Positions 15,126 to 52,977 of a stretch of 64,000 nt of DNA are shown here, in pieces; within the stretch, counting starts at the first letter, position 1, and every line of letters begins with the position of its first letter. This DNA comes from Brachionus koreanus (lineage: Eukaryota; Rotifera; Eurotatoria; Ploima; Brachionidae): NCBI GenBank assembly GCA_016987375.1, contig PJRA01000263.1, forward strand, positions 2,132,800-2,196,799, written 5' to 3'. Under the pieces are notes generated by a model, which saw only the letters and a program-made list of their open reading frames with translations, was not told the origin of the DNA and searched no databases. The position numbers and the translations under genes are program-made.

Positions 15126-15580
15126 TGAATGTTACATTGACGTTTCGATTCTTTTTCATCAATTTTTTGTCATTTAACACAGATTAAGTATGAAAAATTT
15201 TCAGCTTTGATATCCTTGCTCAAATTGAATTTTTATCAGAATTCTAATCAAATCAAATTAGCTTTAACATGAATTAGGAAAATGTAAAAATTTTAAGTCA
15301 AATAACAATTTTTCATAAATTAAAATCTTTTCATTTCTTCGTCAAGCAATTTGGCTTCCTTATGCTTAAAAGAGTAACCTGACTTAAAACTACTGAAATT
15401 GAAAATAGTAGAAATAATACAGCTTATGTGAAAACTCATTATCTAATTGATTTTTATCTAGTTAAATTATATTTTCTAAACAATTTTATTTATAGTAAAT
15501 AAAAATTATTTATTTTTAGAAAAAAAAATTAATTTTTTCTGAATGTGAATTGTTTTCATTTAAAATCACCAAATCATATA

Positions 15581-16696
15581 ATGAATTCAACAAACGAAAT
15601 TGACAATTTTACCAACAATATTGGCTACAGATACCTTATACCATTTGTTTGCACTTTTGGCATACTTTGTAACATTATTAATTTAATTGTTTTAGCTAGC
15701 CCACGTCTTAAACAATCTCCTTACATTTATTTAACTTTTTTGGCTTTATCGGATCTATTAACACTATCTTTTACGCTTACGTTATCATTCACAAGAGGTT
15801 TTCAGTTCGAAGATGTAGGCACTCAATATATTGTAAAAAAATTAGAAAAAAAAATTTTCATTCCATCAGCAAATGTGTTTTCGGCCATTTCTGTAGTAAT
15901 AACAGTAGCACTAACAGTTGAACGGTATTTTTACATCAAATTTCCAATGCATGCATCCAACTTTTACACATCCCAGTACGCCAAAAGAATATCTATAATT
16001 TTATTCATTTTGATCGCTATTTTTCGTATGCCCATGTATTTTTTTACCGATGTAAAAAAAATTCAATTAAACGAAAATTACCTAATAATAATAGAGAGAA
16101 ATTTGGAAAATTTTCAAAAAGGATACTTTTTTACATCATTTCTTTTGTTCGAAATAATTCCTTTTATTTTATTGTCTACATTAAATTTTAATTTAGTCTT
16201 TCTGGTAAAAAAATCAAACAAAGAAATTTATCGTAATTCAAATTTGGATCAATTGTACCGCAAAGAAAAGGATGATCCAAAAACAATGTCCAGCATTGAA
16301 GGTGAATGTTCAACAGGATTGTCTGTTAGCCGTATAAATGTGAAAAAATTATCATTCATAAGCTATAATAGTGTAAGAAAACGCAAAGAAGTAAAATTGA
16401 CAAGAACCCTGATATCAGTTGTATTTTTGTTGCTCTTCAGCGAAATCAGTTCAATAATTACTTATGACAAAGTAACCGAATTTATTGTAAAGGGATATTT
16501 TCCCGACTACATGAAAACCTATCACAAGCTTCAAGTATTTATTTCTAATCTAATTGTCTTGATTGTTCATTCGGTGAATTTTTTTCTTTATTGCTTTTTT
16601 AATGAAAAATATTATAACATTTTTAAACAAAAATTTATTCGACATTTTAAGACTGAGCATCAAGCGATTAAGTTTTCCAAAAAAATAAATCTGTAA
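15581..16696 (+). CDS. Rhodopsin-family GPCR, peptide-receptor-like (intronless)
   Basis: A 371-residue seven-transmembrane receptor in one exon. Helices by eye: TM1 YLIPFVCTFGILCNIINLIV, TM2 around YLTFLALSDLLTLSF, TM3 ending in TVERYFYIKFP (ERY for DRY), TM4 RISIILFILIAIFRMPMYFF, TM5 FEIIPFILLSTLNFNLVFLV, TM6 LTRTLISVVFLLLFSEISSI, TM7 LIVLIVHSVNFFLYCFFNEK (NFFLY for NPxxY). The N-terminus has likely glycosylation sites (NST, NFT). LSDLL in TM2 and FFLYCFFNEKY in TM7 resemble invertebrate FMRFamide/myosuppressin-type receptors. The usual disulfide cysteines at the top of TM3 and in extracellular loop 2 are absent. I start at the ATG at 15581; upstream in-frame codons include no earlier ATG close by. 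The ligand cannot be inferred. Confidence 0.87.
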   Translation: MNSTNEIDNFTNNIGYRYLIPFVCTFGILCNIINLIVLASPRLKQSPYIYLTFLALSDLLTLSFTLTLSFTRGFQFEDVGTQYIVKKLEKKIFIPSANVFSAISVVITVALTVERYFYIKFPMHASNFYTSQYAKRISIILFILIAIFRMPMYFFTDVKKIQLNENYLIIIERNLENFQKGYFFTSFLLFEIIPFILLSTLNFNLVFLVKKSNKEIYRNSNLDQLYRKEKDDPKTMSSIEGECSTGLSVSRINVKKLSFISYNSVRKRKEVKLTRTLISVVFLLLFSEISSIITYDKVTEFIVKGYFPDYMKTYHKLQVFISNLIVLIVHSVNFFLYCFFNEKYYNIFKQKFIRHFKTEHQAIKFSKKINL

Positions 16697-29300: not shown

Positions 29301-32300
29301 CCATATAATTGACCCATGGTTATTGACTTTGGGTTTAATATGTAAGTATGAACAACTTCAAAAGGGGTTCCTGCAGGTGAAGGCTGACCAGCTAAAGAAG
29401 TCATGGCTGCTTTTAAAGTTTCATAGCATTTTGTTTTTCCAGAGCCCGTTGGACCTACCAACATTAGACCGTGACGGACGACGGTTGTTTCATAGAGCTG
29501 AATACACTTTAGAATAAAATTATCAACATCTTTTATATCCAATTTAAAACATGATTTTCTAAGCGAGCTTTCCAAAGCACCATAATCAATCGGCTCCTCT
29601 CTTAAATTAAAATTTTAAAGAAAAAATACTCAAGATTCTAATTCTTACTTTATTTTAGGAAATAAGTCTGATACTATGCCATTAAACAGTTTTAAATCAT
29701 CTTGTAAAAATTTAGGTACGTTCACATCACGAATAGCTCTTAAGCAAATTAATTCCTTATAAAAATTTTTTAGTGGCTTACTATAATAATAAATTTTAAT
29801 GAAATTTTACTTCATTCATGTCCGGATTTTGTCTCTTAAGGTTTCCAGCTGCAGAAATTACTGACTTGACAGCTCTCATACCAAAATCATAATGGTCTTG
29901 TGAGCTAAGCTGTTCGGACGATAGTTTAAAAGTAGTTACAATTTTTTTAGCTAAAGTTTTGGCATCCGAAAAACCAAAAGAAAATAGAGATATTTCTGCG
30001 ATCAAAGCATAATCCGGTACCATCATAGCAACAGGTCGAAACAAAGCCTTTTTTATAACTATTTAAAAGACGAAAAATGAATTAATGTTTAATACTTTTA
30101 AATTGTCTGGTAATTCGGTACGGCCAGCGTATCCAGGATTCATAGTGATAAATACAGCACATGATGGCTTCAATGCTATTTCAACTCCTTCAAAAATGAA
30201 TCTTTCTGCCTTTAAAATACCGATTAGCAAAAAAACTTATTGAAAATTTAAGTTAAGTGATTACTAAGCTAAATAATTAAAAGAGCATAAATTTTTTAAA
30301 ATAGTCATTCAAAAATAATCTTTTTATTTTTCAGATTATTTTTGATTAAAATTCAAGAATAAGTTTTAAAAAATTTGCTTAAAAAAGCCTAGATAATTCG
30401 TTAGTTTGAAATAGATAAATACTAACTTAAAATTAAAAAATTCTAAAAAAATAATAGAAAAATGCACAAGAATTCATTCAAAGATTAAATAAAAAATGCA
30501 TAAGGATAAATTAATTTCAAGTATTTTAATTTTGATCTCAGTTTTATTTATTTTTTCGAAATATTATAAATTTTTCATATTTTACAATTGAAATATTTTC
30601 CCTAATTTTTAATAGACATCATTATTAGTGAATAAAAATTAAAAATTTTTAATATTTGATTTTTGATTTTGAAAAACAACACCAAGAAAACCTAATTGAA
30701 TAATGCTAATAGGTAAAAAAAATAGATCTAAGCTAATGGGGTAATTAGTTGAGTTAGGATTTAGTTAATAAAAATTTTTATGCTTTTCAACTTTTTTCAA
30801 ATTTCAATGAAGTATTTTTGTCAATTGATCAAAAATTTTGAACAAATTTAAAAAATTAAAAAAAAATGAGATCAAATTTAAAAAAAAAATTGAAATATTA
30901 CAAAATTAAGTTTGAGATGACCATAAAAAGAAAGTTCAAAATAAAATCAGGGAAAGAAATTTAGATCTAATTGAAAATTAATAGAATTTTTATCATGCTA
31001 AAATTATTTTGGTTCAAAAAATGAACTAAAACTAATGTTTTCTGAACCAACATTCTAGATTTTCTTATAATGAAAAAAAATATTACGCCGCTTCGAGCCT
31101 ATTAAATATTTATTTAAATAAATTAATTTTGTGCCACAGAAAAATAAAGACAATAAAGCAAACCCGTTGAGTAAGAGCTTGTTGAATCTGTTGAATTTGC
31201 TGAGCAACTACTGATAAGACTTCTATATCGATACGATTAAACTCGTCAAAGCAAGCCCAAGCACCAGCGCTAAATTAAATTTAAAAAATATTGATTTGTT
31301 AATTAGCATCTAAGTTGGATATTTTGATTTTGCCAAGGGAGGAAGAATCAAGGATAAAAGCTAAAGCTAATGCTCTATTTCAAAATATAATTGTTTAGAG
31401 CTTTTTTCACTCTTGTTTTTCTACCTTATTTCTTAAATTTTTTTGTAAATAGGATATCTGTTGTGCAACAACAGAAAGGACTTCAATATCTATTCTATTG
31501 AACTCATCAAAGCAGGCCCATGAACCAGCACTATTTCAAGTCAAATAAATTAGTCAATTAACACTTGGCAAATTTTCTAATATATTTTTTTATTAAGATC
31601 ACTTACCTGGCTAAGCCCTTGAAAAATTTTCCCATAGCCATAAAATCAAGCTGATCTGAACAATTGAATACCACACATTGGATAGCCATCGCTTTAGCTA
31701 AATCTTTGGTAGTTTCTGTCTTACCAGTTCCTGCAGGTCCAGCAGGTGCACCTCCAAATTTCAAGTGCAGTGCACCAGTCAATGTCAAATAACATCTATC
31801 TGTTAGAGGTGTGATTACCAAACGAGATGAATTTCCCAGATATTCATAACCATATAAAAATTCTGCATTCACTGCTCTGATATACAAATTATCATTCATA
31901 TAATAATATCTTAAATTGAGGAAATAAAAATTTCAAAAAATTTTATAAATTTTTTAATTTATACCTAAGCTGACTTATCCATTCAAAATCATTAACATCA
32001 GAAACTTTTTCATTAAGAAGATTGATAACTACATCCCTCGCATGTACTTCAATTACAATAAGAGCTGATAATGTTTGTCTTGCTTTAGAGCTTAATTTTC
32101 CTCGGACCAACTCTCTCAAATCGTCAAGTTCTTTTAGTTGCTTTTGATGATATTCAGGTAAATTGTTTTCTTCTAAAGCTTTACTGACAAGTGTTGTCCA
32201 GTATGTCTGACAACCGGCTATAACAACCTGACCAGGCCATTCAATTACCCAACTTGTTCTCGGTTTCTAGAAACAAATATTTATTTAAAAAAAAAAAACA

Positions 32301-35300: not shown

Positions 35301-38300
35301 CTAAGCTAGCCTTTGATTGTGGAGGCTGATATGAGATATTATTTGGAATTTTTCTATTAAGAACAATTTTTCTTTTAAAATTGTGTATTTGACAAAAGTA
35401 AAAAAAATAAAATAAATGGCTAACATCAACGTTGTTTTAACTGCATTGTTGTACAGTTGAACTTTTGTTTCATTTTAATGAATTTTTTGTAAAAAAAAAT
35501 GAATCAATTTTTATTATATTTGACACTATTTTATCAATTATTTTTAAGTTAATTAAAAATAATCCTGCTTTCAGTATTTTTGTTTTATACAGTATATACA
35601 TTTAATTTTAAGCGATTTATCAAAAGTGGACTTTTATACCTGATTATAAATTTTACTCTTTTGCCTATGAGGCTTGAATTAATAAATAATAATAATACAT
35701 TATACCGATAATTATTTTTAGTTAAAAATAATTAATTTCTTTCATCAATAAAAATCGAATTAAAGGATGAGATTTATCTGATTATTGCTTTAAAATGACA
35801 AGTTAAATTTTATTAAGCAACATCTTATTTTAAGAAATATCTATTTAGTTTGAGAAAACCATAATACTTTTTTTATAAAAGAAGGTAGTTTATTAATATG
35901 TTATATTTGCTGATTTTTTTTAAGCATAAATGGTAATCAAATGTATTTTTGTCAAATATTTACTAAAACTAATAGATTAAATGTAAAATTAGAAAATTCT
36001 GTAAGCTATGTTAACTAAAAAAACTGTCTTTAACTACTAACTAAAGTATTTTCAATTAATGATAAATATTTACTAGCTAACTAAATTTTCCAATGATAAG
36101 AAACAAATTTAAATTATCATCCAGTTTTTAAAGATTTTTAAGGAAAAGTTGGTATTAAACGTAAGAATATTTACATTAATAATTATCAAATTTTTTTATT
36201 GAACAGAATTTTTATTTAAATAAAAAAGTTGTGTTAATTTAAATTAATATTTGAAAAAAGAATTAACCAGTAAATTTTGAAAAAAAATAAAACCTAAAAT
36301 AAGTGAAATCTCATCTTTGAAATTATCACTGAATTCGAAGAAAAAAAAATTAATTACTTTAGTATTTTTATCTATTTTGCTTTACCTTCATAATCAACTC
36401 TAGTTTCGAACTCGTCACGTCCTTGCTTATCAAATACTACAATCGTTAGAGAAAAAAATTATCACTAGTCACGAGGTATTCGAAAATGGATTCAAATAGA
36501 ATTTTTTTTCTTTTAAAATAAATTTTTCTTAACCTGAATTTAAAATTTTTAAACAATGACTGAAATCGAAGTTCCCATAGACACCACCAGACTGCTTGTC
36601 GATGGAGTTTTGGATACTTGCACAGACGAAATGCTTCAGTTGTACATTAGTCTCATAATAAATTCTGATTTGGATGAGACTTTTAAAATTGAGGAATTTC
36701 GTCGCAACAAGCGTCGAGTGATGCTTAAGTTTAATCGCAGTTTTAAGTTTGACCAAGCCATAAATAAACAAAAAAAACTACCTGAGCTAACAGGCAATTT
36801 GATTATGTTAGATCAAGTCAGAACTCCGGATACTATCCGAGTGTCTGAGTTGGCCAACAACTGTACCAAAGAGGTCCTAAACTTGTATTTTTCCAACTCA
36901 AAAATGAGTCAAGGTGGTGACATAAAATCAATTAAACTCTTTCCCTATGAAAATAAGGCTTTAATTCAATTTGCTGATTATCGTGTGGTTGATCAAGTTT
37001 TGACCAAAACTCATATAATTTGCGAGAATCTTATCAAAATAGAAAAGTACTATGGCCCTATTGAAGACGAGTTTTTTCTTGATGAAGAAGAACAAAAAAC
37101 CGAAGAAAGTGAAACTTCATCTGGAAGAAAAAAATCGCTTTCCAGCATGACTAGTCTCAGGTCGTTCTCTACACCTTTAAATACTATAGATAAAACTAAA
37201 ATTGTTTTATCCAATATTCAGGAAAATATTAATATTCAACACTTGGACTTTTATATACAAATTCTATGCAATCGGCATGAAATAAATAGCATTAATTGGA
37301 GCTTAGAAAATAAGGGTAAACTTTTAATCGATTTCAAAAAAGAAATTGATATAAACAAAGTTTTAACTGAGTTTAACACGAATAATTTGAATAATTTAAA
37401 CTCGAAACAGATTCAGATTGAGACAGTCAATGCAACTAGAGCCATAGTTGTATTGGTCAAGGACATAAAGCCCAAAGTATCACTCAAATTAGACTCGCAG
37501 AACGAGGATGACGACTACAGGCCTGAAAATATACCAGCCACTAGAGACTTGTTGGATTTGTATTTTAGCAATAAACAAAGAAGTGGTGGAGGCGAAATAG
37601 AGTCAATAGAAAGAAAGTCGTCACGATACTGGATCATAACAGTGAAAGAGCAGCGTCTAGTCAGAGATATTTTGTCCAGAAAACACACTTTGGACGACAA
37701 GCCAATTAAAGTGTTTCCCTATTATGAAAATTTCGGCTTACCGTACATGTTCAAACCAATTTTTGATGACCTTCAAAATCGTTCTGTCATATTCAAACTT
37801 AAAATCAAAGACGAACGATTGCGCTATTTTTGTAAAGTGAAAAATTTACACAAAAAATCAAATGAGATTTTGAGCGAGTCAAATGCCGAGTCCAAATACA
37901 GCAAACAAGAGTCAAACATTTTGTATGTGAACTATATTGAACGTTTAAATTCAAAAGTTCCGTATACGGAACGAATGTGGCGACTTAAAGTAAAAGAGTC
38001 AATTGAATACTTTTTACAAATATATAAATTTGAAAAATTGACTCTAAGCCATCAACAATGGACGACCATTTCAAAGACCAAACAAATTAGTAGCTATTTG
38101 ATGGCAAAAAACAGCAACGCTGATGAAATCTATCAAGAAACAGACGCAATCGATGCTACTTCTGTATTAGTTGATAAGGTCAAATATATTAGTAGCAATT
38201 GTGCTATAATAAATATTAACGAAACAGCAAGCAATGTGGAAATAAATATAGTTGGGCCTAATATAGAGGTGGATCGATTTATAGTCAAAATAAAGGATAT

Positions 38301-41300
38301 TATTTGCAAGGCGTATTTTACTTTTGAATTAGAAGAAAAGATAATCAAATTTAAAACTTATTTATATGAATGCGAGGATTTGCTGACTAAATGGTTGAAT
38401 GAAGCAGATGGCATTGAAGAAAATGAGAATGAAGTAACACTTGCTTCGGCTCGATCAAATGATAGCGACTCTTTTTCGGCAAATTACTCGAAGCGAAATG
38501 ATGGTAGCAAATTGAATAAGAGCAGAAAAAATACTATCGATGAATTCCTATCCAAATTGGAACGCGATCATTTGGATATGGAGCTATCATATGGAAAATT
38601 GTTCCAGGAGTTGGGCTACACATTTTTGAGTAATGCTGGTAATCAGGATAATGAAGAAGAAGATGATGCTGACTACAAGGATTTTAATGATCGGCTTAGC
38701 AACAGTTTAGAGGAGACTGTGATACTTAAGCCAGGCGAACAAACAGAAAGTCAAATGGATAAGATTAAATTTACGCTCGATGACTTGAGAAACCGTATAA
38801 ATGATATGAAAAAAAAATTCAGACAATTTGTTATCAAGTCAAAAAGATCGAAGGCGCTCAAAGAAACCGATTTAAGCGAAGATGAAGAGTCTGATTTTGA
38901 TGATATTGAAAATGAAACTGACAGTGATATGATTAAGCTTTGTGTTTATGTAAAAGATCAAGCTAAAATTGTTACGTTTAACATGAACCGAAGATGTAAA
39001 GTCAAAGAACTAAAGCAAGTTTTAGTTGAAAAATGTGCTGATGCTGAAGTTGATTCTATCAATGAGCTTAAGTTAACTTTCAATAACGTAGAGCTGAGCA
39101 ATAATAATTACACCATTTCAGATTATGATATTGGTGACAAGAGCACCATAACACTTGAATTCAAATAGATTAGTTTAAATCTATTAACTTTAAAACATTT
39201 TTAATATCTAATAAATTAATCGAATAATTTTTTTCTTAATTCCCTTTTAAAAAAGTCATAAATTAAAACTCAAGTTAAAATATAGTAAATAATTCACATG
39301 ATACATTTTTATTTTAATTAAAAACTTAACTGAAATAAAAAAATTGCATTTATGAAATACTTTCAATTTTTTTCATGTTTGTAGTTTTGAGAATGGAAAG
39401 ACTCTCATAAAATAAAACTATTTTGGCACTTGAGTAAATTTTCATGTCCGTGTTGGAAGAAAAAATTTGTTTCATAAAATGCAATTGGTATCCGTTATAA
39501 TAATGGTTTACTTTCATTTAGACTCAAAGAATTCAGTAAGAATTAAAAAACCTGCTTTTTTCACACTTTTTTATTATTTCTTATTCTCCTAAAAAATATA
39601 TTTTTGCTACTAATAAAAATAAATTTTCAACTATAATAATTATTATCCTTTATTAATGGTTTTAATCATGATAATAATTTTATTGTAAATATAATATTAT
39701 TTTTCAAAAGAAAAATGTTTGCTTAATAAAGCGGGGTTTGCAAATTTATTTAAAGATTTTATATTCAAAAACATTTAAAGTTTTTGTCAAAAATTCCTTC
39801 TGAAAATTTTATTAACTAATACCTTAGTTTGTAACATCCGAATTTTGTATGTTCAAAAACTCAGCTAGTATACAAAGAACTAATAGCAATTTTAAAAGTA
39901 AGTTGCTGAAATTTTACATAGATTAAATTTTCTTATTCCTAATGCTTTGAGATTTTTAAAAAAACTTTAATTTAGAAATTTTAATAGCCTTTGAAATGAT
40001 GGGAAAAAAAGTAATTCTTAAAAACAAAAACTAACCTCTGGATTTTCTTTGGCTTGCTTCATAATCTTTCGCCACATTCTTTCCATTGTTTGATACCTTT
40101 TACTCTCAACCGGAAGCTGTCTAACTATATCCTCTGATGAAAAAATCGGCTCTAAATACAGCCATGAACGTTGACATACCAACCATTCATCAAGTACATC
40201 CTTTAAAATAAATTAAATAAATTCAAATGAATCTTCAATAATAAAAAAAAACAAAGCGATCCACAAGTTTTACAAGTTTAATATAAAATTGAATATCTTA
40301 GATGCTTTTTAGCAAGATTTTTTATCGCTATGTTTCTAAAAAATACAATAAAAAAAATTTACCTGAGTGATTTTTAGTTTATTCTCCCAAGAAGAAATTC
40401 TTTCTTCAAAAGCTTTTTTAAACGGCGAAAATGACATACTCTGAGTCATTACTATATGATCATCCAACAATTGTGAAATTTCATCTGAAGCTTTGACAAT
40501 AGAAGTTCCAGTGTTCTTATAGGGAAGCACTTCAAACTTAATTGATTTCCACTCGCCTTCCATTTTGTCCAAGGCTTGCTCAATCGTATATTCTTTTCCC
40601 GCTATTTCTGCAACCTTTGATATTTTATCTATGTGACGATCAAAGCCCATTTCAAGGCATTTCTTAAAAGTAAGATCTTTTTTGGGACGCACGGGGAGTT
40701 TGAGCTCCTCAGTCAACATCTCCCAATGTCTGTTTCTCATACCTGGATTACGCAAAGCTTGTATTAAAGGGATGTTAGGACGGAAATCTTCTATTTGATT
40801 TTTTATTTCCACTGCGACATGTTGTACACCTAAAAATTGAAAGATTAATTAAAATTTTTAAATAAATTCTTTTTGTGCTTTAAAAGGATAAAATTACTTT
40901 ATTTTACATATATTTACACTTTTTAATTTAAATTTTATTTACATAAAATGAAGTAATCTACCTTTTCTTTTTTGTTTTAAAAAAAATTAATTTAATGACA
41001 CAATCATGCAAAATACATTTCAGTTCATGCATCTTATAAAATGATATGCAACTTTCTTAATATTTGGCTAACTAATATTTAACACCTATACAAAAAATAC
41101 ATTTTATATCCTCGTCAAAAAATTCGTCATTATTATCTTCTGTCGCAATAAATTTGATTTAAATATTCTAGTTAAATTAGAAATCTTACTTTCAGCATCT
41201 TGAAACTGTTTTATAGCCTTATGCATTGACTTATAAGCTTCAGTAACGTTTTTTTCAATATTTTCTGCATCAATAAATGAAATTGCATCATTCATCCAAC

Positions 41301-47931: not shown

Positions 47932-50900
47932 TCACTCAATGTATAATAGATAATTTTTTATCCGTTTGGGCACTGGTAAATCTTCAATACTTTCAGTAAC
48001 CTGAATTAGACTGCTCTTGTTGTTCAAATCATTTGCCAACTTTTCGTTTTCCTTTAACCGATTGAGTATCATTCGTCTACAAATAGATCTTAACGATCGT
48101 GGACTTGCCACTAAGCGTTCCAAGTACAAATCCAGCGATTCAAGCGAATAGACTTTTTGAGTTTTGGGCAAATTTTTTTTGTGGTGAAAACTATGATGAT
48201 GCTGATGATTATGATGCGAACAAATTTGGGCTTCATTCACTAAATTTTTTGCCAAAATTATCTCATTTAATTTAGCATTTTCCATCGAGTCAAACATAAG
48301 TTTGACAAATCTTTTGTAATAATTCAAAAATAGCACCATGCTATCTACGACAATATTGTTTGATTTTACATTTGAGGTAACACTAACTCCATTTAAATTA
48401 TTAAGTGCAAGCAAAGAGACAAACGAGGGCGATGGAGTTAAAAGACAAATTGGATTGGAAAGATGATTTTTGCGAGCTACCAAATTGGGAGAAGCACAGC
48501 CTTCAGACATTCGTCTAGTTATTTCGATCTCTTTTTCGGAGATCAAAGGCGAAACATGGTGATTTAAAATGCGATCAGTGGCAGATGCATGACCTTGTTC
48601 GTTTATGGTCGCAAAAACTTTGTCTTTAAAGTAGTCATTGAAATAATTATGATGGTGATGGTGATGATGACTGTGATGATGCCTCTGCTCGTCATTTTTG
48701 TGATGAGGCCGCTGATGTCGACTCAAATTGACACTGGTCAATATTGGTGACGGTCTTTCAGTCAAAAACGGATCACATAGCTGAGCTAATATTGAATTGT
48801 TGACTTTTAAGCGATGACTGCTAGACGAGTTTAGATTAAATGGTTCCAAATTAGGATCAGCTCCATGTTGGATCAATGTTCGCATCAAATCGTACACTAG
48901 TTCCATTTGATAGCATGTCTTGCTCAAAAATACCAATTGAACACAGTGATTTAGTAAATTATTTGACTGTATGTACTCGGTGCCGGCTTGTACTTGACAA
49001 GTCGAATCGTTCGGATCGTACAACTCATTTTTGATCAATTCAATTAGTATATTTTTAATGAAATTATTTTTTTCAAATTGTTGACTTGAATTTAAAAAAT
49101 TTGGATACAATATCCAATTAGTAATTAGTCGTTTAACAACTTGGGCATTTATGAGCTTTGACCAATTTTTAAATGAAGATTGAAGTTTAACTCTTAATTT
49201 ATTATTTAGACACATTTGAAATTTTAGCAGTATTTTGAAAACTTCATTAGCCGAGCTAAAATCGTCTATTTGACAAACTAGCAAAAGCTCGAGATATTTT
49301 TCAATAGAGCAATCTCTTTGCGGTAATCTAAGCAAATGGTCTTGATTGTTCACAGCACTGACTGTGTTACTCAATGGACAATTTTTGCTCAAATTTAACC
49401 TAATCGAATTTAAATCAATTACATCATTTAAAATGTATTCTAAAAATTCGATGTCCAATATTTTATGAAGATTAAATTTAGTTATCTTTGGACTTGGTCT
49501 GTTGGTGTCGATATTGGATGGTGAACGATTGCGAAAGTTCTTGCGAATCGAATGCTTCAGCAAGTTATTGAGTAGTGTTTCGACACAATTGTGGTAGCCC
49601 TCGTTTTCAAGCTCTACATTGTTTATGTTGAGAAGAAGATCAGCGCCCGACTTAAGCAACAATCGCAAACATTCCTTGAACTCGGCCTTCCATTCGTTAC
49701 GATTTACTTTATCATTCTCTTTGAAGAACACAGTCTCGATCAGCTCGTCCCATTCGAACAACGATTGTAAGCAAAGCTTTCTCTCGTTGTTCAAAGTGTT
49801 CACATGGGTCTTGAGACCGCCTTTTTTGAGCATCAAAAAAAGTATTCTCGACAAACTCTTTGGATCGTTGTACTCGGATAGAACTTTTTTGCTTCGGGAA
49901 AATTTGCTAGTCACATTTTCGTTAAACAAACAGTGCAAAGCCGTGTTGCCAGTGATCGGCTCACGCTTAGTCAAATCAAAGCCACAATTTAGAAGAACTT
50001 TGATTATTTTAGATGAACGCGTATTTTCCAATATGTAAAACATGGTATTTACATTCTTGTTAAATACGCGTCTCTTTGAATTAGAGTCTAGTAAATTTGG
50101 CAAACTTTCACTATTCAAATTGGATAGCAAATAGACTAGGCAATTTTTGGACTGAAATTTAATGGCATAATAAATGAGCTCGTAGTCCTCATTGGGCTTG
50201 AAATAATTGAACAATAACTGATGATGTTTGTACAAACGCGAAAATATGTCCACGTCGTCCAAGCACAGCGAAGCCATGATCGGCGACAATGGTCTCAATT
50301 CAACTTCTCCAAGCTGATCCGGCTCTGAATCGACCTCGTCGCCTGTCTCACTATTGCACTCCGATTTGCTCAAATTGTACCATTTTTTCAGCATCAATTT
50401 GGATTTTTTGTTCATTTGTCTCAAATTGCTCAAGCTTAATTTGGAAATTAGATATTTATCGGCACCGTTGTTTAGTAACAAGTCGACTAGTTTAAGTCTC
50501 AATTCATTTAGCTTTTCATAAATGAAATTATTTTTAGTACTTAAGTTGCTGCGTGTCGAACATGTGGTCGATTTTGGATTTAGGCTCTTGCAATGTTCAT
50601 TTGAAGATACCAACGAATGTATCGAGGTTGATAAGGAATTTTTGGGTCTTGAATAATCAAAATAATTTTCGCTTGAGTTTAATTTGTAACATGCTGAATT
50701 GCAATCATAGTCATATTTGTCATAGTAGTTTAGCTCATCTTTTTCTTTATAGTCGTACAAATTGGACGAGTCGACTGATTCAGAGTCCGAACCATCGTCG
50801 CTTAACTCCTCGTCCGAGTTGTTCGATTCGGTATACGAAATAGGATTGAAATTTTCGGACGATTCGGACTCGGATTTGGTCATTTGGGCTTTGTTTACTT

Positions 50901-52197
50901 TAGCACTAGTTTTGAATAATTTTGATATGGAATCGGCTGATTTTGAATAGCAGCTTATTAGCGATGAATTAAATGAGTTAAATGAAAGACATGAAGAAGA
51001 CGAAAATGAACTGGATGAGTGGGTTTTGGTCGAACTGGAGCTGGACGACCAGAGCGAGTGCAGGTCCGAATATTCGTTGTTTATTGAATTGAGCGAGTTG
51101 GAGCGAGACAATTGATGCTTAGTGGACTTTTCAATAAATGTTTCAGTTTGAATGGTGTTTCGTCTGTGCGGCAAATAGTCGCTCACCAATGGTGGTGACA
51201 CTGCATGTTGAGCTCTTTTTTTATTCAAATTTGAAAAACTTAATAAATTAGTAGAATTATATACACAGCAAATTATTAAGAGTGGCGTGTCTATTGGAAT
51301 TTTGCTTAGATCACAAATGCTTTTCTCGTCTGTATGATTGGTAATTATGGCTAGATCAATGTTGGTAATGTAAGAACAGGGTGATGTCGACCTAGGCCGT
51401 GGACTTAGTCGAGTAGGTGAATTTTTTACAATTGTGTCCGCAGTTACTTCACTAGGCGTGTCTGATTCTATTTTAGTTTGATCCTGATTAGGCATGTCGC
51501 CATCACTTGAACTTACTTCAAAATCTATGAGTACATTGTTTGAACGAAAGCTTTTATTTTCGTGAAAATTTTTTAAATTTGGCCGTTGTAGTTTGGGCGT
51601 TTTTGTGTCAAAAATCAAGTCGTTTGAGCTAGCAGATACTTCTATGCAATATTTGGTCTTGTTAGTCAAAAGCAAACCACGATTCGGATCACACGAGTAG
51701 TTTTTGAGCAACAAAGAAAATAAGTTTAGTCGTTGACAAATCAAATAGTCATAGTCGTTTTCAATATTGGACATGTTTTTTTCCATGAAAATTTTGAAAT
51801 TTTCAATCAATACATTGTGTGCAAGTTTTAGAATTGAACTGGTCATGGTCTGAATTAGATTGTAGCCGTTTTGTTTGTTGGTTATCAACAAAAGATCCTT
51901 TGACTTGAACGAATCAATATTTTGAATTAGCAAATGCATCAGGGTGCTTATGTTTTTTGAGTCGAATTCGATCAATTTTTCTAACTCGGCTATAGTCAAC
52001 TTGTTGCTCATTGACAACAGATTCAACTGGGATCTATTCTGGTTCAAAAGTTTGACAAGTTCGCTCTTTGATACATAGTTGAACAACTGCTCCACTAGTT
52101 TTATGTCCGTATCGGTTAGGTCACGACCTAACAAATTATACAATAAGCTCGAGCTTAGGTCGATTACTGACAGAGCTGTGTGCCATATAAAATTCAT
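47932..52197 (-). CDS. Large ankyrin-repeat, SOCS-box protein (ASB-like), one exon
   Basis: A 1421-residue single-exon protein, several times longer than typical ASB proteins (300-600). Ankyrin-like units are scattered: LVDLLLNNGADKYLI near residue 576, KVLLNCGFDLTKREPITGNT then ALHCLF near 735, LRLLLKSGADLLLN near 845 and RTLIQHGADPNLEPF near 1105. The C-terminal 61 residues form a SOCS box: SPRSLRSICRRMILNRL fits the Elongin BC box (L-x3-C-x3-I), and EDLPVPKRIKNYLLY fits the Cul5 box (LPxP, then YLL). In known ASB proteins this recruits Elongin B/C and Cullin 5, so a ubiquitin-ligase substrate receptor is predicted. Ser-rich and acidic low-complexity stretches fill about residues 200-560, and a His tract sits near 1177. 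The target is unknown, and several ankyrin units are degenerate. Confidence 0.86.
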   Translation of the reverse strand: MNFIWHTALSVIDLSSSLLYNLLGRDLTDTDIKLVEQLFNYVSKSELVKLLNQNRSQLNLLSMSNKLTIAELEKLIEFDSKNISTLMHLLIQNIDSFKSKDLLLITNKQNGYNLIQTMTSSILKLAHNVLIENFKIFMEKNMSNIENDYDYLICQRLNLFSLLLKNYSCDPNRGLLLTNKTKYCIEVSASSNDLIFDTKTPKLQRPNLKNFHENKSFRSNNVLIDFEVSSSDGDMPNQDQTKIESDTPSEVTADTIVKNSPTRLSPRPRSTSPCSYITNIDLAIITNHTDEKSICDLSKIPIDTPLLIICCVYNSTNLLSFSNLNKKRAQHAVSPPLVSDYLPHRRNTIQTETFIEKSTKHQLSRSNSLNSINNEYSDLHSLWSSSSSSTKTHSSSSFSSSSCLSFNSFNSSLISCYSKSADSISKLFKTSAKVNKAQMTKSESESSENFNPISYTESNNSDEELSDDGSDSESVDSSNLYDYKEKDELNYYDKYDYDCNSACYKLNSSENYFDYSRPKNSLSTSIHSLVSSNEHCKSLNPKSTTCSTRSNLSTKNNFIYEKLNELRLKLVDLLLNNGADKYLISKLSLSNLRQMNKKSKLMLKKWYNLSKSECNSETGDEVDSEPDQLGEVELRPLSPIMASLCLDDVDIFSRLYKHHQLLFNYFKPNEDYELIYYAIKFQSKNCLVYLLSNLNSESLPNLLDSNSKRRVFNKNVNTMFYILENTRSSKIIKVLLNCGFDLTKREPITGNTALHCLFNENVTSKFSRSKKVLSEYNDPKSLSRILFLMLKKGGLKTHVNTLNNERKLCLQSLFEWDELIETVFFKENDKVNRNEWKAEFKECLRLLLKSGADLLLNINNVELENEGYHNCVETLLNNLLKHSIRKNFRNRSPSNIDTNRPSPKITKFNLHKILDIEFLEYILNDVIDLNSIRLNLSKNCPLSNTVSAVNNQDHLLRLPQRDCSIEKYLELLLVCQIDDFSSANEVFKILLKFQMCLNNKLRVKLQSSFKNWSKLINAQVVKRLITNWILYPNFLNSSQQFEKNNFIKNILIELIKNELYDPNDSTCQVQAGTEYIQSNNLLNHCVQLVFLSKTCYQMELVYDLMRTLIQHGADPNLEPFNLNSSSSHRLKVNNSILAQLCDPFLTERPSPILTSVNLSRHQRPHHKNDEQRHHHSHHHHHHHNYFNDYFKDKVFATINEQGHASATDRILNHHVSPLISEKEIEITRRMSEGCASPNLVARKNHLSNPICLLTPSPSFVSLLALNNLNGVSVTSNVKSNNIVVDSMVLFLNYYKRFVKLMFDSMENAKLNEIILAKNLVNEAQICSHHNHQHHHSFHHKKNLPKTQKVYSLESLDLYLERLVASPRSLRSICRRMILNRLKENEKLANDLNNKSSLIQVTESIEDLPVPKRIKNYLLYIE

Positions 52198-52977
52198 TTT
52201 TTGGATTAGCTTTTTATTATGCTTGCGATTAAAATTTTTCTATTTCTTCATTTATCTAAAAAAAAAAGTGATTTAAATTAATAATTATGCCCATGTAGTT
52301 AAAAGATTTCGTGTGTTTGTTTCTTCTTGTTGGTAAGATGGACCAATATTTCTAGCCGTGACACACCTAATAATTTGAATTGAAAAAAAATTATAAATTT
52401 TGACTAAAATTATCAAAATGATAAGGTGGTGAAAAAAAACGTGGCCGCAAAATAAAATTGCCTAGAAATGAAAAAATGTATTTATTTTTTTTTTTGATAA
52501 ATGAAACATTATTAACTGTAAACTTTGAATATAAACAAAGTAAAATATTCAATTAGACTTTGATCCAAAACAAAATTATGAACAAAAATGCAAATTTTTG
52601 TTCAAATACGCTTGAATTAAAAATTATTTTAAATTTTTGAGATTACCGAACAAAAGAGATGGATTGTTGTTGTTCCATTCCTAAATAATTTAATTTTTGT
52701 CTTTTAAATTATTTCATAATAAATAAAATTTAAGAAAAAATCTGATGAGATTAAATGGTGTTTTAAGGCGCATTTCAAACCAATATCAAGACACTAATAG
52801 CTCTAAATTTAGGTTGCTTAAACTAAAAACTCAATATTGCTTGAGCTATGTATTTAGAGGAGAGAATCACGAGTTTCGCTAGTGAGTGAGGATATTTTAT
52901 ATTTATAATATTAACCTATGAATTCAATTTCGTTTTAAAATCATATGTTTTTTCTCTAACTTAAAAATGCATTTAAA

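Follow-up and report, generated by a model that had tools for sequence, protein, structure and literature searches.

Two tandem, probably mutually exclusive exons at the AAA1 Walker B region of the axonemal dynein gene DNAH1 in the rotifer Brachionus koreanus

A 64,000-nt stretch of the Brachionus koreanus genome (contig PJRA01000263.1; hereafter the window, with positions counted from its first letter) carries two tandem exons, A and B, in a DNAH1 gene. The two exons are in-frame alternatives, locked by the reading frame against the inclusion of both or neither. We consider them a mutually exclusive exon pair with a probability of about 80%. Judged from the sequence, the animal probably has the means to produce two DNAH1 motors that differ slightly. 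A preliminary description of the locus had already proposed two motors; the in-frame alternatives at AAA1 and the frame lock speak for it, and that both exons are actually spliced is what we infer from them.

The gene encodes an inner-arm axonemal dynein heavy chain and runs on the minus strand from about 45280 to 17399 of the window. An 866-residue stretch (21166-18566) scores 1438.7 bits against the PDB chain named DNAH1 (8j07) and 990.8 bits against a DNAH7-named chain, and the AAA1 piece scores 172.9 bits against DNAH1 and 151.5 bits against DNAH3. By this top match, with its clear margin over DNAH7, the gene carrying exons A and B is DNAH1, as initially assigned. Its exon set was obtained with a simple dynamic-programming gene model, from which doubtful exons were removed prior to the duplication count described below. 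The model is untrustworthy within the large intron (40036-32732); it also placed the start of the exon upstream of the pair at 31876, which is wrong compared with 31909, and joined A to B via a donor-like site at 31411. Inside the large intron (approximate borders), on the opposite strand, an 871-aa open reading frame (36553-39168, plus strand) shows PARP14-type RRM domains and a ubiquitin-like end that stays under its Pfam cut-off; going by its sequence, it is probably a gene nested in the DNAH1 intron. Elsewhere in the window, a 387-aa open reading frame (15533-16696, plus strand) matches rhodopsin-family GPCRs (PF00001, 63.8 bits), and a single open reading frame of 1435 aa (47935-52239, minus strand) has marginal ankyrin-repeat and SOCS-box matches.

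The exon pair and its neighborhood comprise the following features:

31607..31909, minus strand: upstream exon with the AAA1 Walker A motif (GPAGTGKT) and the donor CAG/GTAAGT; start set by comparison with the Brachionus calyciflorus protein P0006
31425..31530, minus strand: exon A, 106 nt; AAA1 Walker B strand and alpha-3 helix, helix end divergent
31405..31424, minus strand: region of the alternative donor-like site (31411/GTGAAA), which would lengthen A by 14 nt
31270..31424, minus strand: intron between A and B, 155 nt; GT-AG ends, ordinary fold, faint similarity to A and B
31164..31269, minus strand: exon B, 106 nt; AAA1 Walker B strand and alpha-3 helix, end near the family consensus
30210..31163, minus strand: intron after B, 954 nt; no further exon copy found
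30096..30209, minus strand: downstream exon with the pre-sensor-I hairpin and the sensor I strand

Both exons are preceded by AG and followed by GT, enter in phase 2 and leave in phase 0, so that each borrows two codon bases from the upstream exon and closes on a complete codon. These borders and lengths agree with the preliminary description of two tandem 106-nt exons, which had also correctly placed the difference between the two motors just behind the main ATPase site, here directly after the AAA1 Walker B motif. The exons are identical at 70 of 106 bases. The shared motif CFDEFNR named at the outset is present, but the sharing is wider: 24 of the first 25 residues are common to both exons, the sole difference being Ser/Ala at residue 3. 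The 10-residue tails differ as described, at eight of ten positions (codons 26-35), with Gln29 and Leu32 common to both. When joined to the neighboring exons, A alone and B alone each remain open. The product of A joined to B stops after seven codons (RWCLGLL, then stop), and skipping both exons leads to a frameshift and an early stop. The earlier claim that both and neither end prematurely is upheld by these two products, but there is an in-frame path from A to B through the donor-like site 14 nt beyond exon A (31411/GTGAAA), which scores lower than all 24 other donors of the gene.

Each splice site was scored leave-one-out against the remaining donors and acceptors of the gene, 24 of each, including one acceptor that stems from the wrongly set exon start. 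This version was preferred to scoring without leave-one-out, which ranked the acceptors of both A and B last. Only two of 24 acceptors score lower than that of exon A and only one of 24 donors lower than that of exon B. The acceptor of B (eight of 24 lower) and the donor of A (nine of 24 lower) are not weak. The donor of the upstream exon outscores the other 23 donors, and 13 acceptors score lower than that of the downstream exon. One weak site per exon, the acceptor in A and the donor in B, is suggestive of regulated exons. Of the 21 introns measured, 13 have 48-59 nt and 14 are shorter than the A-B intron; crowding is therefore no bar to joining A with B. RNA structure as a means of exclusion found no support, the fold of the A-B intron being nothing unusual (z -0.10). 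AT-rich inverted repeats were also listed, without a chance control. The one exclusion mechanism supported here is the reading frame.

In the proposed mechanism, the strong upstream donor (31607) would be joined to the acceptor of either A or B, and the chosen exon to 30209. Messages containing both or neither would carry early stops and presumably be removed by nonsense-mediated decay. The outcome would be two proteins that share the Walker B strand and the greater part of the following helix, apart from residue 3, and which differ in the last helix turns and in the turn leading into the AAA1 pre-sensor-I hairpin.

The position of the swap was read from the predicted fold of a 164-residue DNAH1-like fragment (P0204), whose prediction has a mean pLDDT of 56.7 overall and of 88-94 in the blocks covering 111-140. 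Exon residues 26-35 correspond to residues 113-122 of this fragment, i.e. the end of a helix (102-120) and the turn ahead of two strands (125-128 and 131-134), after which a further strand follows (140-143). We take the helix to be alpha-3, the hairpin to be the pre-sensor-I insert and the last strand to be sensor I, as known from AAA+ proteins. On our best reading, the choice of exon exchanges the final part of helix alpha-3, ahead of the pre-sensor-I hairpin in AAA1. Both versions match the Pfam family of the dynein hydrolytic ATP site (AAA_6, PF12774; cut-off 25.2 bits), A with 157.1 and B with 165.6 bits. The swap would probably tune the onward signalling of ATP binding and hydrolysis at AAA1.

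To what extent the two copies have been kept alike is seen from their codons. Of codons 1-25, 13 carry silent differences and one a replacement (17 nucleotide differences in all); by the Nei-Gojobori method, the synonymous sites differ at 14.0 of 16.0 and the replacement sites at 3.0 of 59.0 (ps 0.875, pn 0.051). When 17 changes were placed at random in these codons, a mean of 11.4 and a minimum of 5 residues were altered, and none of 200,000 neutral trials altered one residue or fewer. Since one residue is altered here and at least five are in the random trials, chance is ruled out as the cause of the likeness. With synonymous sites this close to saturation, selection must have acted on both copies for a long time. 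The tails are not conserved between the copies (codons 26-35: ps 0.51, pn 0.62). By these measures the copies are old, with the Walker B part kept to the same protein in both and the ends differing.

The duplication is confined to this pair. All 27 modelled exons, translated in the one frame that is open in each, were compared with positions 16001-46500 of the window, and only A/B was found duplicated. A tblastn search for a third copy, using six exon versions against 17001-46500, gave nothing below E 1e-3 beyond A and B (next 0.041). The A-B intron weakly resembles exon A (15 of 500 shuffles as good) and exon B (9 of 500). It also repeats TTGAAATAG of the exon A acceptor and aligns faintly to A/B and upstream sequence; this similarity may stem from a dead third copy. 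No copy was found in the 954-nt downstream intron, where 194 of 200 and 39 of 200 shuffles were as good.

Related proteins were taken from searches that covered the best 120 of 3752, 120 of 1746 and 120 of 2370 matches, 318 different proteins overall; residue counts refer to 167 distinct segments from these. Among the matches listed, the protein P0006, DNAH1 of Brachionus calyciflorus (a rotifer), is the nearest relative. Its tblastn alignment to the window consists of 17 pieces with identities of 79-98%, of which 11 exceed 87%, and the length-weighted identity of the whole gene is about 90.1% (16 pieces, omitting the second match to the exon pair). Related species had been named early on as a place to look for the exon versions, and P0006 does carry an A-type exon: 29 of 35 residues are as in A, with differences at positions 3, 7, 27, 32, 33 and 34, against 10 of 35 differences from B. 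Because six of 35 residues have changed and the upstream exon is 98.0% identical between window and P0006, exon A evolves faster than the exon preceding it, and a little faster than the gene average. One of the changes, Phe to Leu at position 7, turns CFDEF into CLDEF and counts against strict constraint. The A version alone is visible in the B. calyciflorus model; B is assumed to exist there.

Across the matches listed, residue 31 is Asn in one of 167 distinct segments (P0006 only) and Ala in 150, residue 28 is Leu in six and Ile in 159, and residue 27 is Tyr in none. Exon B has the commonest residues at 28 (Ile) and 31 (Ala), and exon A departs at both. Some oddities of A are thus common to two species and rare or absent elsewhere among the matches listed. 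In the search with the A version, no A-type tail was found among the best 120 of 2370 matches. B would be the ordinary form of DNAH1, and A a form specific to the lineage.

A strays from the consensus of the family at positions 28 and 31, has a weak acceptor and differs from B. calyciflorus at six of 35 residues, CLDEF included, all of which would also be expected if it were a declining duplicate, rarely or never used and slowly decaying while B makes the working DNAH1. We consider this improbable: despite near-saturated synonymous sites, A is open, of equal length and one residue away from B in codons 1-25, and it is A, not B, that the B. calyciflorus model holds. Somewhat less probable again is that the main role of the pair is that of an on-off switch, with the amount of DNAH1 set by the destruction of double and skipped messages. 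The early stops of both kinds of message and the A-B intron, long enough for splicing, would suit such a switch, but it does not require the Walker B protein sequence to be preserved in each copy.

Doubled exons are also met in more distant DNAH1 models. In the bdelloid Adineta steineri (P0041), the model reads ...AQQIQVINQALMQK and continues directly with a second exon copy; in the annelid Paralvinella (P0005), it reads ...AQQIATIQKALTQR, followed by 24 residues unlike the exon and then by a second copy. In both cases the annotation looks as if it had been forced through a tandem pair of exons. These two models have the ordinary version first and the window has it second; given this opposite order, the bdelloid and annelid pairs may be independent of A/B. 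Seison (P0106) has a single version, with AGSW as in exon A. A showed no clear orthology with the bdelloid or Seison version: Seison matches A and B equally (77% each), and the second copy of Adineta is closer to B (71%) than to A (64%).

Two copies per protein, as in the Adineta and Paralvinella models, would also be the product if A and B were both included through the 31411 donor, so that DNAH1 would contain the Walker B helix twice. This join is open and was picked by the gene model, but it depends on the lowest-scoring donor of the gene, and the extra helix would be expected to disrupt the AAA1 fold, which makes double inclusion very unlikely. An assembly or haplotype artefact, a general possibility and nothing beyond that, can be practically dismissed, given that 36 of 106 bases differ, nearly all silently in codons 1-25, and that an A-type exon occurs in another species.

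Further candidates were set aside. AMQ tails of molluscs (Octopus, Argonauta, Haliotis, Mya) were rejected as the second exon of a conserved pair, their flanks being 0.79-0.88 identical to molluscs with ordinary tails in the pairs compared; they may be paralogues or plain substitutions. The flanks of the Biomphalaria and Aplysia tails are likewise diverged (0.795 to B. pfeifferi and 0.823 to Elysia), and no mollusc was counted. The doubled Walker B of P0003, P0004 and P0007 was ascribed to model or assembly doubling, as the exon stretches are identical and lie 335, 791 and 230 residues apart. Ten genome-contig loci, all lacking an intron between the exon and the one upstream of it and with a dynein heavy chain only 50-77% identical to the query, were not accepted as DNAH1 of a near relative and were attributed to eukaryotic contamination of MAGs. 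Contigs of one Verrucomicrobiaceae MAG (L009, L010, L011, L012 and L018) encode motor regions of dynein heavy chains, so this MAG appears to hold eukaryotic contamination. No match to the exon region was found in the viral contigs searched.

Axonemes are usually taken to vary through different heavy-chain genes. In this case, a single gene appears able to supply its main ATPase domain in two versions, nine residues apart. If A and B are mutually exclusive exons, nature has supplied a minimal pair with which the role of the alpha-3 helix end in dynein can be addressed, as can the possible use of differently tuned inner arms in the sperm and cilia of rotifers. Should the bdelloid and annelid doubling be real, the exon would be a repeated or ancient target of motor tuning. 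More speculatively, the DNAH1 Walker B exon could be an old splice switch of spiralians, present in two versions in rotifers and annelids and providing two grades of one inner-arm motor (e.g. for the sperm flagellum and for coronal or body cilia) by changing helix alpha-3, the link from the main ATPase site to the pre-sensor-I insert, with the catalytic residues untouched; we regard this as possible, though doubtful.

The orthologous chains in the PDB named DNAH1 (8j07, 9fqr, 9d2f) or DHC2 (8glv), to which the 96-residue AAA1 piece aligns ungapped, have one version of the helix end (ITTIQKAQQQR in two alignments), in contrast to the two exon versions found here. In the full-text literature searched, with subscription papers and preprints outside its scope, no exclusive exons were found for an axonemal dynein heavy chain: PMC5740500 has 'dynein' once, in its reference list, and no DNAH, the main text of PMC3303723 has no 'dynein', and PMC10886578, in the extracts considered, deals with other dynein subunits. 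The initial statement that no such switch was known at AAA1 of an axonemal dynein agrees with this search, but a mutually exclusive exon has been published for a cytoplasmic dynein heavy chain, DHC1 of Schistosoma mansoni (PMC3228551). As presented in the passage on SmDHC1, that case likewise consists of two homologous exons of equal length, with exclusivity judged from length, phase and alignment. It differs in that the dynein is cytoplasmic, the exons lie in 'the middle of the gene', with no domain given in that passage, and codons are split at both exon ends; the A/B pair belongs to an axonemal inner-arm dynein, lies at the AAA1 Walker B and has a split codon at one end only. The arthropod muscle myosin heavy chain, as covered in the relevant part of the same paper (PMC3228551), is similar in that an exon swap in the motor domain tunes the product of one gene, and different in that the Daphnia gene has nine clusters and encodes an actin motor, compared with one pair and an AAA+ motor here. 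Exclusive exons are therefore not new to dyneins; going by the literature searched, what appears to be new is their probable occurrence in the axonemal DNAH1, at an unusual and functionally pointed place.
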